Shown: one piece after another, positions 38,748 through 42,527 of the stretch
How positions within the stretch are numbered: the stretch's first letter is position 1
Layout: each line of letters opens with the position of its first letter
Assembly: GCF_002916655.1 (NCBI RefSeq)
Contig: NZ_PPSM01000066.1
Location: 62,001-126,000, forward strand
DNA: 64,000 nt
Source: Novosphingobium sp. HII-3
Lineage (GTDB): Bacteria; Pseudomonadota; Alphaproteobacteria; Sphingomonadales; Sphingomonadaceae
Reading direction: 5' to 3'
The notes under the pieces: generated by a model
Database searches by the model: none
Told to the model about the DNA's origin: nothing
What the model saw: the letters and a program-made list of their open reading frames with translations, nothing else
Translations under genes and position numbers: made by a program

Positions 38748-41051
38748 ATGACGCCATTCTGGGCCCAGCTCCGCTCGCTCTGGCACAATCCCCGTGCCCG
38801 GATCGTCTTCTGGGCGACGATCGTCGGCGTCGTCATGGGGCTCAGCGATCTTGGGATGCCCCTTGAGGAAGGTCTGCGCAACGTGCGCTGGTGGGCCTAC
38901 ACGCGACAGGCGGACCAGCAGATCATCGCGGTGCTCCAGGACGATCGGACCTTGGATGAACTCGGCCGGAGTGACGTCACAAGATCGAACGATGCCGATG
39001 TCCTGAAGGCTCTTTTTGCGGCCGGAGCGAAGGACGTCTATTTCGCGCGCTCGTTCTCGAAACGCGGGTTGCCAGAGGATGATCAGCGCTTTCTGGAGAT
39101 GCTGAAGAGGCATCGCGGAAAGGTTTACCTCGGGGCGACGTTGGGAGAGAGCAGCAACAGGGGTAACTTTGCCGGGGCTTTACCGCTGAAGATGTTCCGC
39201 GAGTATGCTCAACCTGTTTCCCTGCTGCTGCGTCACCGCCCACTTAACCTAAGCGTCCAAATCCCCTTTTCCTCCGATAGCCCGATCGGCCATATCCCTA
39301 CAGCCTCCGCTCAAATTGCAGGCGTCCGCCGCGGCAGCGATGAGTTGTACTACCCCGACTTTTCAATCTCCGCGAAGAGTATCCCACAACTTAGCTACAT
39401 CGATGTGCTGCGGGGCAATACTGATCCTTACCAAATACGTGGCAAGACCGTTGTCATTGCTCCCGTCGGCGCTGCCTTTAGCGATCAGCACCGGCTTCCC
39501 GGCCAGAATGTCGCTGTTCCTGGAGGAATCTTTCACATCGTCGGTGCGCAGACCTTGAAGTCTGTCATGCCGCGAGATCTGGGCTGGTCGGGTGCGCTCC
39601 TGATCACGCTTCTCGTGGTTGCATCTGGACTTCGCCGAGGGAAGGTCCTGGATTCGCGACGCCTGTGGATGCTTGTAGTTCTCTTGGGTGTTGCGCCATT
39701 TGTCCTGAGCTATTTCAGTGTTCAAGTCAGCATCGCTCCGGCCTTGGGTCTTGCGCTGGTCGCAATCGTGCGTACGCGTCATCTGGACCGGGTCGAAGAG
39801 GCCAGCGAGACAAACGCAGGGTCGGGCTTGCCGAGCGTTCAGGCGCTGAGGAATTCGCCAGACCTGTCGACCCGCATTCTGGTGGCTTTGAAGATCCGCA
39901 ATTACGGCGGAATCATCGGCAGCTTTGCCGAGCATGTCGAAGCTCAGCTCGCCAAGGAGATCGTTCGCCGGATCCGGATCAGCGACGAAAGCGTCTTGAT
40001 CTACCATGAGGGGGGGATGTTCGTCTGGCTTTCGTCCATACGGAGCACCTTCGACTTGTTCGAGAACCTGGAGGGGCTGCACCGGATCGTTCAAAACGGT
40101 ATTCAGGTGGGTGGCATAGAGATCGACCTGTCCTTCAACTGCGGCATCGATTCCGAATTCGACCGACCGCTGTCAGGACGCGTTGCAAGCGCCATGCAAG
40201 CGGCCGAAGAGGCTGTCCGCAGTGATGAACTCGTCTTTCAGCACGATGCTCGCAAACATGAGGCGCAATGGGAGATATCCCTGCTGACCTCGCTTGATCG
40301 CGCGATTGACAATGGAGAGGTCTGGGTAGCCTATCAGCCGAAGCTTGACCTCGTGTCGAACAGGATCACGGGCGCCGAGGCTCTGGTGCGGTGGACGCAT
40401 CCGGAGCGAGGCCCGATCGGCCCGGACAAGTTCATCCGAATTGCGGAAGAATTCCATCGGATCGAGCGCATTACCCGCTTCGTACTCAACGACGCAGTCC
40501 GAGCGGCAGTGGAGTTGGAGCGCGAGGGCTACGAGATGACGATGTCAGTCAACATCGCAGCTCAGCTTCTTAGAAATCCCGCGTTGCCAGGCATGATCGC
40601 GGAGATACTCGCCGCCCACGGCCTTTCCCCCAATCGCCTTATCCTCGAGATCACCGAGACAGATCGCCTCGATCGCAGTTCCAAGACCTTCCAGATGCTT
40701 CAACGTCTGGTCCAGTCAGGCCTTCGTCTTTCGATCGACGACTTTGGAACCGGCAACGCCACGATCGACTACTTGCGCTATCTCCCTGCGAGCGAGGTCA
40801 AAATCGACAAGTCCTTTATCTCCACGATGGACAGCAGCGAAGCGGACCTGCGTCTGGTGCAGTCTATTATCGAAATGGCTCACTCTCTGGACCGGGTGGT
40901 GGTGGCGGAAGGCGTTGAAACGCTCAAGAACCTGGAGGCACTCACGCGCCTCGGCTGCGATCTCGTACAAGGCTACCATATCAGCAGACCTGTCCCATAT
41001 CGGGATTTTTTGAGCTTTGTCTCGGGAAGAAGGGCGCGATTGATTAGCTAG
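38748..41051 (+). CDS. CHASE2 - degenerate GGDEF - EAL c-di-GMP signalling protein
   Basis: This 767-residue membrane protein has a first helix (about residues 18-34), a periplasmic CHASE2 sensor (to about 280) and two or three helices at about 280-345. A GGDEF-like domain follows whose signature reads EGGMF, so it should not make c-di-GMP. The EAL phosphodiesterase domain looks complete: AEALVRW, SVNIAAQLL, EITETD, IDDFGTGN, VKIDKSFI and AEGVET. It probably degrades c-di-GMP in response to an envelope signal. Lying just after the XrtA locus, it may tune polysaccharide production. Confidence 0.92.
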   Translation: MTPFWAQLRSLWHNPRARIVFWATIVGVVMGLSDLGMPLEEGLRNVRWWAYTRQADQQIIAVLQDDRTLDELGRSDVTRSNDADVLKALFAAGAKDVYFARSFSKRGLPEDDQRFLEMLKRHRGKVYLGATLGESSNRGNFAGALPLKMFREYAQPVSLLLRHRPLNLSVQIPFSSDSPIGHIPTASAQIAGVRRGSDELYYPDFSISAKSIPQLSYIDVLRGNTDPYQIRGKTVVIAPVGAAFSDQHRLPGQNVAVPGGIFHIVGAQTLKSVMPRDLGWSGALLITLLVVASGLRRGKVLDSRRLWMLVVLLGVAPFVLSYFSVQVSIAPALGLALVAIVRTRHLDRVEEASETNAGSGLPSVQALRNSPDLSTRILVALKIRNYGGIIGSFAEHVEAQLAKEIVRRIRISDESVLIYHEGGMFVWLSSIRSTFDLFENLEGLHRIVQNGIQVGGIEIDLSFNCGIDSEFDRPLSGRVASAMQAAEEAVRSDELVFQHDARKHEAQWEISLLTSLDRAIDNGEVWVAYQPKLDLVSNRITGAEALVRWTHPERGPIGPDKFIRIAEEFHRIERITRFVLNDAVRAAVELEREGYEMTMSVNIAAQLLRNPALPGMIAEILAAHGLSPNRLILEITETDRLDRSSKTFQMLQRLVQSGLRLSIDDFGTGNATIDYLRYLPASEVKIDKSFISTMDSSEADLRLVQSIIEMAHSLDRVVVAEGVETLKNLEALTRLGCDLVQGYHISRPVPYRDFLSFVSGRRARLIS

Positions 41052-41069
41052 AAAAGTCTTGTAGCCATT

Positions 41070-41085
41070 TTAACGAAATGTTAAC
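41070..41085 (+). promoter_or_regulatory. Candidate CtrA box (TTAA-N7-TTAAC)
   Basis: TTAACGAAATGTTAAC matches the CtrA consensus exactly, with the 7-base spacer. CtrA is the alphaproteobacterial cell-cycle/motility regulator. It lies 46 bases upstream of a 16-codon reading frame. Binding is inferred from the motif only. Confidence 0.55.
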
Positions 41086-41131
41086 CATCTGGGCGACCGC
41101 AGAAACGCGGTTGTTCACATGGGAAACTGTC

Positions 41132-41182
41132 ATGACCAAGAGCATCTGGGGCGGTGGCTGGTGGGGCAACGGCGGCATGTAA
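41132..41182 (+). CDS. Possible 16-residue Gly/Trp-rich microprotein
   Basis: ATG at 41132 opens a short frame reading MTKSIWGGGWWGNGGM, with GGGAAA eight bases upstream as a possible ribosome site. Three tryptophans and seven glycines in 16 residues are striking, and the frame sits between a CtrA-type box and a strong terminator, as an independent transcript would. I do not recognise a family, and such a short frame can arise by chance. A competing frame from the ATG at 41119 (37 codons, to 41232) is basic and looks less special. The transcript could also be a non-coding RNA. Confidence 0.45.
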   Translation: MTKSIWGGGWWGNGGM

Positions 41183-41236
41183 TTGCCGCACCTGCCGTAG
41201 TTCGAGCTGTTAGGCCGAACCACCGCAAGTAAAATG

Positions 41237-41284
41237 AAGCGCTTTCCAGAAGAACTCCTGTCTTTTGGAAAGCGCTTTTTCTTT
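41237..41284 (+). terminator. Strong Rho-independent terminator
   Basis: AAGCGCTTTCCA (41237-41248) pairs perfectly with TGGAAAGCGCTT (41266-41277) over a 17-base loop, and a T-rich tract TTTCTTT follows. It ends the transcript coming from the EAL gene and the micro-ORF. Confidence 0.9.
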
Positions 41285-41411
41285 GTCTGGATGATGAGAA
41301 TTGGGCGGCACGAGGCCGTCGCGTTTCTGTTCTGGTGCGCTGTCAGCGAACGCTGTACGCCATGTTTGGTCTGGTGCTGGAGAACGCACTCTCCGGCTGA
41401 GCCTTTAGCTC

Positions 41412-42527
41412 TCAGTCCTCGCCATGACCAAGTGCAAGGTAGTCTGCGCTTTGCATTTCATTGAGACGGCTGATCGTCCGGTCGAATTCGAAGCGACCGC
41501 TTCCCGCCTCATAGAGATCCTCGGGCGCCGCATCGGCTGCGGCAATCAGCTTTACCCGGTTTTCGTACAAAGCGTCGATAAGCGTGACAAAACGCGCCGC
41601 TTCATTGCGGCGGTCAGGACCCATCTTGGGGATGCCGACGAGGATTACCGTATGGTAAGCCCGTGCCAAGGCCAGGTAGTCGGCCGCGCCTCGGGGTTCA
41701 CCGCAGAGGCGTTTGAAGCTGAAAACGCCCACGCCCTTCAAGCTCTTGGGCACATGAAGGATACGGCCGCCACCCAGTTCTATGTCGGCTGAGGGAACGT
41801 GTTCGCTGTCTTCGGGAGGATAGTCGGTGAGGCGATAGAACGCCTCTCTTGCGGCGGCCGTCGCCGCGTCCCCCAAGGGCGTGTGCCACGTCGCCATGCC
41901 GCCAAGGCGTTGCATGCGGTAATCGGTAGGGCCGTTCAGCGTCAGAACATCGAGCTGCTGCTCAATGAGCGCGATGAAGGGCAGGAAGTGTTCCCGGTTG
42001 AGCCCATCCTTGTACAGGTCCCTCGGAGCGCGATTGGACGTGGTCACGATGGTGACGCCTTCGCTCTCGATGAGGTGCGTGAAGAGGCGGCTCATGATCA
42101 TGGCGTCGGCGGAGTTGTTGACGACCATCTCGTCGAAGGCAAGGCAGCGCAGGTTGCGGGCCAGGGCGGCGGCAACAGGTGGAATCGGGTCGCCCGTCTC
42201 CTTCTTGCGCTCCTCCCGCAGCAGGGCATGCACCTCCAGCATGAAGGCGTGAAAATGGACGCGACGTTTCGCCGGAATGTCCAGGGTCTGGATGAAGAGG
42301 TCCATCAGCATGGACTTGCCACGACCGACTCCGCCCCACATGTAGACGCCCCGGGGTGCGTGTGCCTTCCTGCCTAGGAGCTTACCGATAAGGCTGGTGG
42401 AGGCGTTCGCTTTGTACAGGTCGCGCTGGAGACGGCTCAGCCGCTCGGACGCTGCCGCCTGTTCAGGGTCGGAGCGCAGTTCGCCTGTAGCGACAAGCGC
42501 CTCATAGCGCTCCATCATCCCGCTCAT
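41412..42527 (-). CDS. zapE: Cell division protein ZapE (AFG1-like ATPase)
   Basis: The 371-residue ATPase has the P-loop GVGRGKSMLMDLF near residue 66, with VHFHAFMLEVH downstream. The Walker B-like LAFDEMVVNNSADAMIMSRL and the arginine segment TTSNRAPRDLYKDGLNREHF are also present. ZapE acts at the Z-ring in late division. Its ATG overlaps the thioesterase stop (ATGA), so it belongs to an sdhB-thioesterase-zapE unit read leftward. About 130 bases to the right of the terminator at 41284 hold nothing I recognise. Confidence 0.94.
   Translation of the reverse strand: MSGMMERYEALVATGELRSDPEQAAASERLSRLQRDLYKANASTSLIGKLLGRKAHAPRGVYMWGGVGRGKSMLMDLFIQTLDIPAKRRVHFHAFMLEVHALLREERKKETGDPIPPVAAALARNLRCLAFDEMVVNNSADAMIMSRLFTHLIESEGVTIVTTSNRAPRDLYKDGLNREHFLPFIALIEQQLDVLTLNGPTDYRMQRLGGMATWHTPLGDAATAAAREAFYRLTDYPPEDSEHVPSADIELGGGRILHVPKSLKGVGVFSFKRLCGEPRGAADYLALARAYHTVILVGIPKMGPDRRNEAARFVTLIDALYENRVKLIAAADAAPEDLYEAGSGRFEFDRTISRLNEMQSADYLALGHGED

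Follow-up and report, generated by a model that had tools for sequence, protein, structure and literature searches.

A conserved Trp-rich micro-gene with a CtrA-type box behind one clade of CHASE2-EAL genes in Novosphingobium and related sphingomonads

In the Novosphingobium DNA analyzed here (the window, i.e., the whole stretch of 64,000 nucleotides), a CtrA-type box, a 16-codon reading frame, and a transcription terminator follow one another closely in the gap between the gene of a c-di-GMP phosphodiesterase and its convergent neighbour. Is this arrangement a gene of its own, and if so, what could a peptide of such a size do beside a c-di-GMP enzyme? The analysis shows the cassette to be real and conserved as a micro-gene, and the 16-codon open reading frame (ORF) is probably a genuine, undescribed micropeptide gene that acts with the adjoining c-di-GMP phosphodiesterase.

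The cassette and its partner gene

The features of the locus are as follows, in positions of the whole window.

38748 to 41051, plus strand: CHASE2-EAL c-di-GMP phosphodiesterase gene of 767 amino acids, the partner gene (Pfam)
41059 to 41087, plus strand: promoter-like pair, putative -35 hexamer TTGTAG (41059-41064), 17 nt, putative -10 hexamer TAACCA (41082-41087) (sequence)
41070 to 41085, plus strand: CtrA-type box TTAA-CGAAATG-TTAAC, i.e., TTAA-N7-TTAAC (sequence)
41094 to 41113, plus strand: 5' hairpin CGACCGC-AGAAAC-GCGGTTG of 7 bp, just 5' of the Shine-Dalgarno sequence (sequence, consensus)
41121 to 41125, plus strand: Shine-Dalgarno sequence GGGAA within the conserved stretch TTCACATGGG (sequence)
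41132 to 41182, plus strand: micro-ORF MTKSIWGGGWWGNGGM, 16 codons (41132-41179) and stop codon TAA (41180-41182) (sequence, coding tests)
41200 to 41220, plus strand: second, small hairpin GTTCG...CGAAC, 3' of the stop codon and 5' of the terminator (predicted fold)
41237 to 41284, plus strand: intrinsic terminator with a 17-bp stem, loop ACTCCTG, and a T-rich tail at 41278-41284 (sequence, fold)
41412 to 42527, minus strand: zapE (AFG1-like ATPase), the convergent neighbour (Pfam, 1.1e-109)

The first cassette element starts 7 nt behind the stop codon of the EAL gene, and a transcript is predicted to start at about the first base of the 5' hairpin (41094). An earlier note, made from the letters of this DNA, had described a perfect TTAA-N7-TTAAC box and a 16-codon frame with a possible Shine-Dalgarno sequence beside an EAL gene and an exopolysaccharide locus, all of which we recovered; the gene cluster in question encodes an XrtA exosortase, an XrtA amidotransferase, and a PEP-CTERM/XrtA glycosyltransferase upstream of the EAL gene. 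The perfect 12-bp terminator stem with T-tract of that note holds for the first 12 bp, but the full stem is longer, pairing 41237-41253 with 41261-41277 over 17 bp with one G-U pair. The 7-bp hairpin at 41094-41113 is absent from that note.

The partner protein matches the Pfam families EAL (3.3e-66) and CHASE2 (5.2e-11). Residues E544-A545-L546, N602, E634, D664-D665, K685, E721, and Q741, which we take to be the active-site residues of the EAL domain, are invariant in 25 aligned EAL orthologues. An AlphaFold model of the protein (pTM 0.50) contains an N-terminal helix, a confident CHASE2 domain, and a mostly confident EAL domain, with further long helices that may be membrane spans; the middle is GGDEF-like and poorly modelled, and can be aligned to the GGDEF-EAL portion of DosP.

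The arrangement of box (at most one mismatch), Shine-Dalgarno sequence, and Trp-containing micro-ORF is more than chance. Elsewhere in the window, none of 298 pieces of 420 nt had it; the same rule picked out 2 of 1418 further pieces from family loci, as against 78 of the 142 stretches that follow EAL genes, whether or not these belong to the clade described below.

A small reading frame that follows one clade of EAL genes

Within the genus, a DNA search of 149 genomes returned six long matches at 74-78% identity and several partial ones; 136 genomes were counted at E <= 1, most of which are noise. A covariance model of the 5' part of the cassette (promoter, hairpin, and start of the ORF), built from the matches of the DNA search within the genus, found one copy per genome in 42 of 195 Novosphingobium genomes. 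An EAL orthologue precedes the element in all 42 of these loci, although in G444 its alignment stops about 160 nt earlier and in G458 the best EAL piece is a fragment. On the other side, zapE lies convergent in 41 of the 42 (it was not seen in G005); in 36 of these 41 loci no more than about 650 nt separate its end from the model start, and in the other five it lies 0.8-1.7 kb away. The model gave no match outside the genus, since the 298 family and 147 order genomes yielded two matches each, all of them in Novosphingobium itself. A pattern scan of named genomes found 18 loci, i.e., 16 from Novosphingobium (N. resinovorum and N. panipatense are among the named carriers), one from Sphingomonas sp. 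IC081, and one from a metagenome-assembled genome named Porphyrobacter. A degenerate pattern of the peptide matched only the window among 298 family genomes, because the peptide evolves too quickly to be caught in this way, and the terminator pattern was not found in viral contigs.

Kinship outside the genus was instead traced by following the EAL gene, the covariance model having found nothing there. EAL genes were sought with the CHASE2 part of the protein in 195 genus, 249 family, and 190 class genomes, with matches in 116, 71, and 11 of them, respectively, and we fetched the loci of 20 genus matches without a covariance-model hit together with 80 family and class matches. Behind all 20 further genus EAL genes there is a Shine-Dalgarno sequence with a micro-ORF, picked by eye among mechanical candidates (e.g., MWAWLIKGFGER and MTNKKPAARSIWDSLGNFFGTSD). 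In these 20 loci the EAL gene faces the XrtA amidotransferase in 11, zapE in four, and neither within the stretch in five. Where the XrtA amidotransferase takes the place of zapE (L128, L130, L131, L133, L135, L137, L138, L139, L141, L142, and L143), the micro-ORF stays with the EAL gene.

In a tree of the EAL proteins (141 of 142 were long enough; that of G458 was left out), all carriers of the micro-ORF fall into one monophyletic clade of 110 (support 0.914). Looking at the same spot behind the EAL genes of related genomes, as the earlier note had proposed, we found micro-ORFs of 8-41 codons behind 108 of the 110 EALs of this clade, 100 by a fixed rule (ATG, 8-45 amino acids, at least one Trp, Shine-Dalgarno sequence, start within 330 nt) and eight by eye, the latter missing the rule through a start further off, the lack of Trp, or a Shine-Dalgarno sequence outside the rule. 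Because the group outside the clade had received a less careful search by eye, a relaxed rule (start within 400 nt) was run on both groups alike. Trp-containing ORFs with a Shine-Dalgarno sequence then numbered 107 of 110 inside the clade versus 5 of 31 outside, where 30 loci are testable because L183 has no downstream sequence; dropping the Shine-Dalgarno requirement gave 108 of 110 versus 17 of 31, and adding the box gave 84 of 110 versus 0 of 31. Across the genomes compared, the micro-gene is thus tied to one clade of EAL genes.

Two loci of the clade are exceptions. Behind the EAL gene at L177 (G270), a transposase-like ORF, recognized by eye, occupies the place of the micro-gene. The other exception, L227 (G305), has no micro-ORF behind its EAL gene, and the micro-gene is found elsewhere in the same genome (L188), complete with terminator, between genes that by eye are enoyl-CoA hydratase-like and LpoA-like. 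A micro-gene away from its EAL gene implies that linkage in cis is not needed.

The peptides themselves share little more than their character. Trp is present in 107 of the 108 clade peptides; in a collection of 101 peptides it occurs in 100, and at least twice in 89. The sequence drifts, longer forms in other genera reading RGFWDWLLGGGW, and many peptides of other genera are longer and have a common motif (e.g., MAKRTKQPVRGFWDWLLGGGWSN and MKNKKPNKGFWDWLLGGGWGSTGTGG). At L084 (G447) the ORF reads MLGNIGGRPKGG, the sole case without Trp among the 42 element-positive loci, and the micro-gene is possibly decaying there. When 179 family genomes were searched with a profile built from 27 long peptides, 25 matches came out at E <= 9e-4, of which 24 were judged real by eye from start, stop, Shine-Dalgarno sequence, and terminator, while L207 was set aside as a chance match. 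All of the real matches except L188 adjoin an EAL gene (23 of 24), yet the search is not independent, because 15 of the 24 come from genomes whose peptide is itself a row of the profile; nine matches are new, and eight of these lie beside an EAL gene. The window 16-mer was not found by this long-peptide (RGFWDWL-type) profile, the best match in its own genome lying elsewhere (E 0.05). The window cassette does lie behind an EAL gene of the clade and carries the box, as belongs to the RGFWDWL-type micropeptide family, and kinship of its peptide is suggested by this place, by the promoter, and by intermediate forms such as MNKDIWGGGWWGGGL, MRKDFWGGHWGSSV, and MYSWLWGGLGR.

Whether the frame is conserved as a frame was a check put forward in the earlier note, and it came out in favour of a peptide. 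Sister pairs were picked solely from the EAL tree; the 26 pairs show 208 differences, distributed over codon positions 1, 2, and 3 as 63, 54, and 91. Synonymous changes amount to 71.2 versus 46.8 ± 5.5 at random placement (2000 trials, largest 68), and third-position changes to 91 versus 69.6 (largest 93). An earlier form of the test gave 133 versus 65 synonymous changes and is biased towards a synonymous excess, because its pairs had been picked by peptide identity. Since the substitutions favour synonymous sites, selection acts on a peptide; conservation and coding signature, as established by sequence comparison, together indicate a reading frame under purifying selection.

The earlier note knew of no family with this peptide, and for its longer relatives this was borne out. 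The window 16-mer is below the 20-residue limit of the Pfam, NCBIfam, PHROGs, and PDB searches, for which longer members were used. Seven long members had no match in Pfam or NCBIfam, the best PHROGs match of the long members had an E of 0.016 (phrog_29326, function not known), and the best PDB match, searched with one peptide, had an E of 9.6. In the open-access literature we found no paper on the micro-gene and no ribosome-occupancy or peptide-detection data for the group.

The CtrA-type box, the promoter, and the RNA folds

According to passages of PMC9437464, the published CtrA site is TTAA-N7-TTAA, and a repeat of a Sphingomonas phage contains GTTAACCAT, an extended half-site. The window has a single perfect match to the box (0.02 expected from shuffles). 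Over the whole genome, perfect TTAA-N7-TTAAC occurs three times, exactly as often as the reversed control pattern; the box pattern alone is therefore not telling, and the genome-wide count lends no support to the CtrA part of the earlier interpretation. What stands of that interpretation is a small, compact gene that carries a CtrA-type box beside an EAL gene and an XrtA/PEP-CTERM exopolysaccharide locus.

We counted TTAA-Nn-TTAA with at most one mismatch at 20-150 nt before the ATG, excluding TTGA halves. With n = 7, the box lies upstream of 37 of 42 Novosphingobium micro-ORFs and 44 of 59 others, where shuffles give 1.8 (max 6) for the former and 4.2 (max 10) for the latter; once loci with similar upstream regions had been thinned out, it was found in 45 of 59 versus 4.0 (max 11). 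Neighbouring spacings score lower (n = 6 in 9/42 and 22/59, n = 8 in 9/42 and 13/59), and other spacings reach up to 25/59 outside Novosphingobium and, at n = 17-18, 33-37/42 within it. The signal at n = 18 arises because half-sites repeat at an 11-bp pitch: in most of L082-L123 the series TTAA-N7-TTGA-N7-TTAA-N7-TTAT runs from the EAL stop codon through the -35 to the -10 region. The first TTAA of this series is missing in the window. TTAA-N7-TTGA was counted 33 times and TTGA-N7-TTAA 30 times in the 42 loci, and a count that allows TTGA halves (42/42 and 47/59) is inflated, because the TTAA of the EAL stop and the TTGA of the -35 region are also 7 nt apart in most Novosphingobium. Boxes without mismatch are few (8/42 and 7/59), the second half-site being TTAT in 25 of the 42 Novosphingobium loci. 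A promoter-like TTG-N20-TA at 55-130 nt before the ATG is present in 73 of the 101 micro-genes (base-shuffled controls: mean 7.8, max 18). A TTAA-N7-TTAA box near the promoter is thus conserved among the relatives, and CtrA may bind it. The CtrA pathway of Sphingomonas melonis is said to control motility and biofilm formation. From what is given in passages of PMC8116508, this species is among those that apparently grow unharmed without CtrA.

The RNA would be well folded on either side of the ORF. The fold of 41100-41290 has a z of -5.1 versus shuffles. Across the family, the 50 nt before the ATG reach z < -1 in all 42 Novosphingobium, where the mean z is -4.2, and in 43 of 59 others; for the 110 nt after the stop, z < -2 is reached in all 42 and in 51 of the 59, respectively. 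The 5' hairpin is part of the consensus of 37 distinct sequences, with changes on both sides that keep the pairing at two pairs. A test of this hairpin on 15 sequences was mixed, the covariation score being reached by 3 of 500 shuffles and the number of both-side pair changes by 151 of 500, while a +3 slide scored equally high. An outer pairing, CCAT with ATGG, was rejected, as its CCAT falls within the -10/box region and there is hardly any variation in its pairs. A terminator-like stem under a strict rule follows 70 of the 101 micro-ORFs (shuffles: mean 17.3, max 28). In about ten relatives (L003-L010) the terminator arms and the loop ACTCCTG (41237-41277) are almost letter-identical, which exceeds the needs of termination, whereas the same relatives are just 74-78% alike over the whole stretch. 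G110 (L009) and G459 have a paired C-to-T and G-to-A change in the terminator stem.

What the peptide may do

Taken together, we infer a promoter with a CtrA-type box that would yield a transcript of about 190 nt, whose end the 5' hairpin probably shields and in which a ribosome site and the Trp/Gly-rich 16-codon ORF are followed by a strong terminator, which probably stops the EAL mRNA as well. If it accumulates, the peptide would most likely act in trans on the adjoining phosphodiesterase, altering the activity of the enzyme by binding to it or to the surrounding membrane, and through this peptide CtrA could adjust c-di-GMP. That the cassette is such a dedicated micropeptide gene, driven by a CtrA-type promoter and tuning the paired CHASE2-EAL phosphodiesterase, we put at about an even chance. 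The great variation of the peptides between lineages counts against a modulator, since it would be odd in a ligand whose enzyme has a well conserved core.

Among published systems, the nearest working analogue is peTrpL, a Trp-rich peptide. As described in PMC7298713 and PMC10117765, rnTrpL of Sinorhizobium meliloti is likewise a short alphaproteobacterial RNA with a tiny ORF (14 codons), and its peptide peTrpL acts in trans. Unlike peTrpL, which comes from a trp attenuator, the window cassette is not followed by a trp gene, and it has a separate promoter with a CtrA-type box and a c-di-GMP enzyme beside it. HmsE is a small-protein partner of the cyclase HmsD. In that pair, with which PMC10294631 deals, a small protein is likewise functionally tied to a c-di-GMP enzyme; the likeness is one of description, and in our case the peptides have 8-41 residues, the enzyme is a phosphodiesterase, and the promoter is of the CtrA type. 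With the CtrA-controlled alphaproteobacterial genes covered in PMC9437464, the cassette shares the box and its spacing.

A membrane-active or other micropeptide without any link to the phosphodiesterase, sharing the terminator and co-inherited with the EAL gene, would also fit the Trp-rich composition with its mean net charge of +1.6, and G305 retains the micro-gene with no EAL gene beside it. We think this unlikely, given that the micro-gene is kept behind 108 of the 110 clade EALs, even where the other neighbour differs.

The peptide might instead be secreted as a ligand of the periplasmic CHASE2 domain, so that signal and receptor would lie side by side and diversify together. Per block, the CHASE2 half of the orthologues is 37-58% identical to the window protein and the rest 55-95%, the cytoplasmic part being mostly at 71-95%, and among 41 Novosphingobium the peptide distance tracks the CHASE2 distance (partial r 0.59 after controlling for the cytoplasmic part). 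The non-coding leader tracks the CHASE2 distance too (0.40), however, for which reason CHASE2 may just be a better clock, and the partial r is just 0.145 outside Novosphingobium. With the leader trending similarly and the rest of the family hardly at all, co-evolution of peptide and CHASE2 is left weak; in addition, peptides of 8-17 residues are too short for a usual signal peptide, and we hold a secreted ligand to be rather unlikely.

We assign the same low likelihood to a product that is mainly a small RNA, an alternative named in the earlier note; we take it to be made from the 3' end of the EAL unit through an internal promoter, with an ORF that is secondary or part of a dual function. Stable folds before and after the ORF would suit such an RNA, as would the near-identity of the terminator arms and the loop (ACUCCUG in the RNA) among close relatives. 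A small RNA alone is nevertheless disfavoured, because the Trp motif persists across genera and the surrounding RNA sequence does not, and the synonymous excess in the ORF also speaks for a peptide. The best Rfam 15 match of 40900-41500 lies far below the cut-off (23.5 versus 62 bits), and the sub-threshold matches, mostly animal microRNAs, were discarded.

That the Trp codons sense charged tRNA as an attenuator and control a downstream gene is hardly credible, for although three Trp codons are followed by hairpins, no co-directional gene comes next in the window, where zapE is convergent as in 41 of the 42 loci, and mostly close by.

A dedicated micropeptide gene paired with the phosphodiesterase thus remains our preferred reading. 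Its extension to the whole family, in which each CHASE2-EAL protein and its own Trp peptide of 8-41 residues (a modulator or ligand) would form an undescribed two-gene signalling unit that is switched by CtrA and in which the peptide shrinks and diversifies with the sensor domain, is plausible, though we would lean slightly against it. Genes of such a size escape annotation. A conserved gene of 8-41 codons that accompanies a single clade of c-di-GMP phosphodiesterases, in roughly a hundred genomes at species level, would link CtrA to c-di-GMP in sphingomonads, and the set of micro-genes would serve to ask what a ten-residue peptide does inside the cell.
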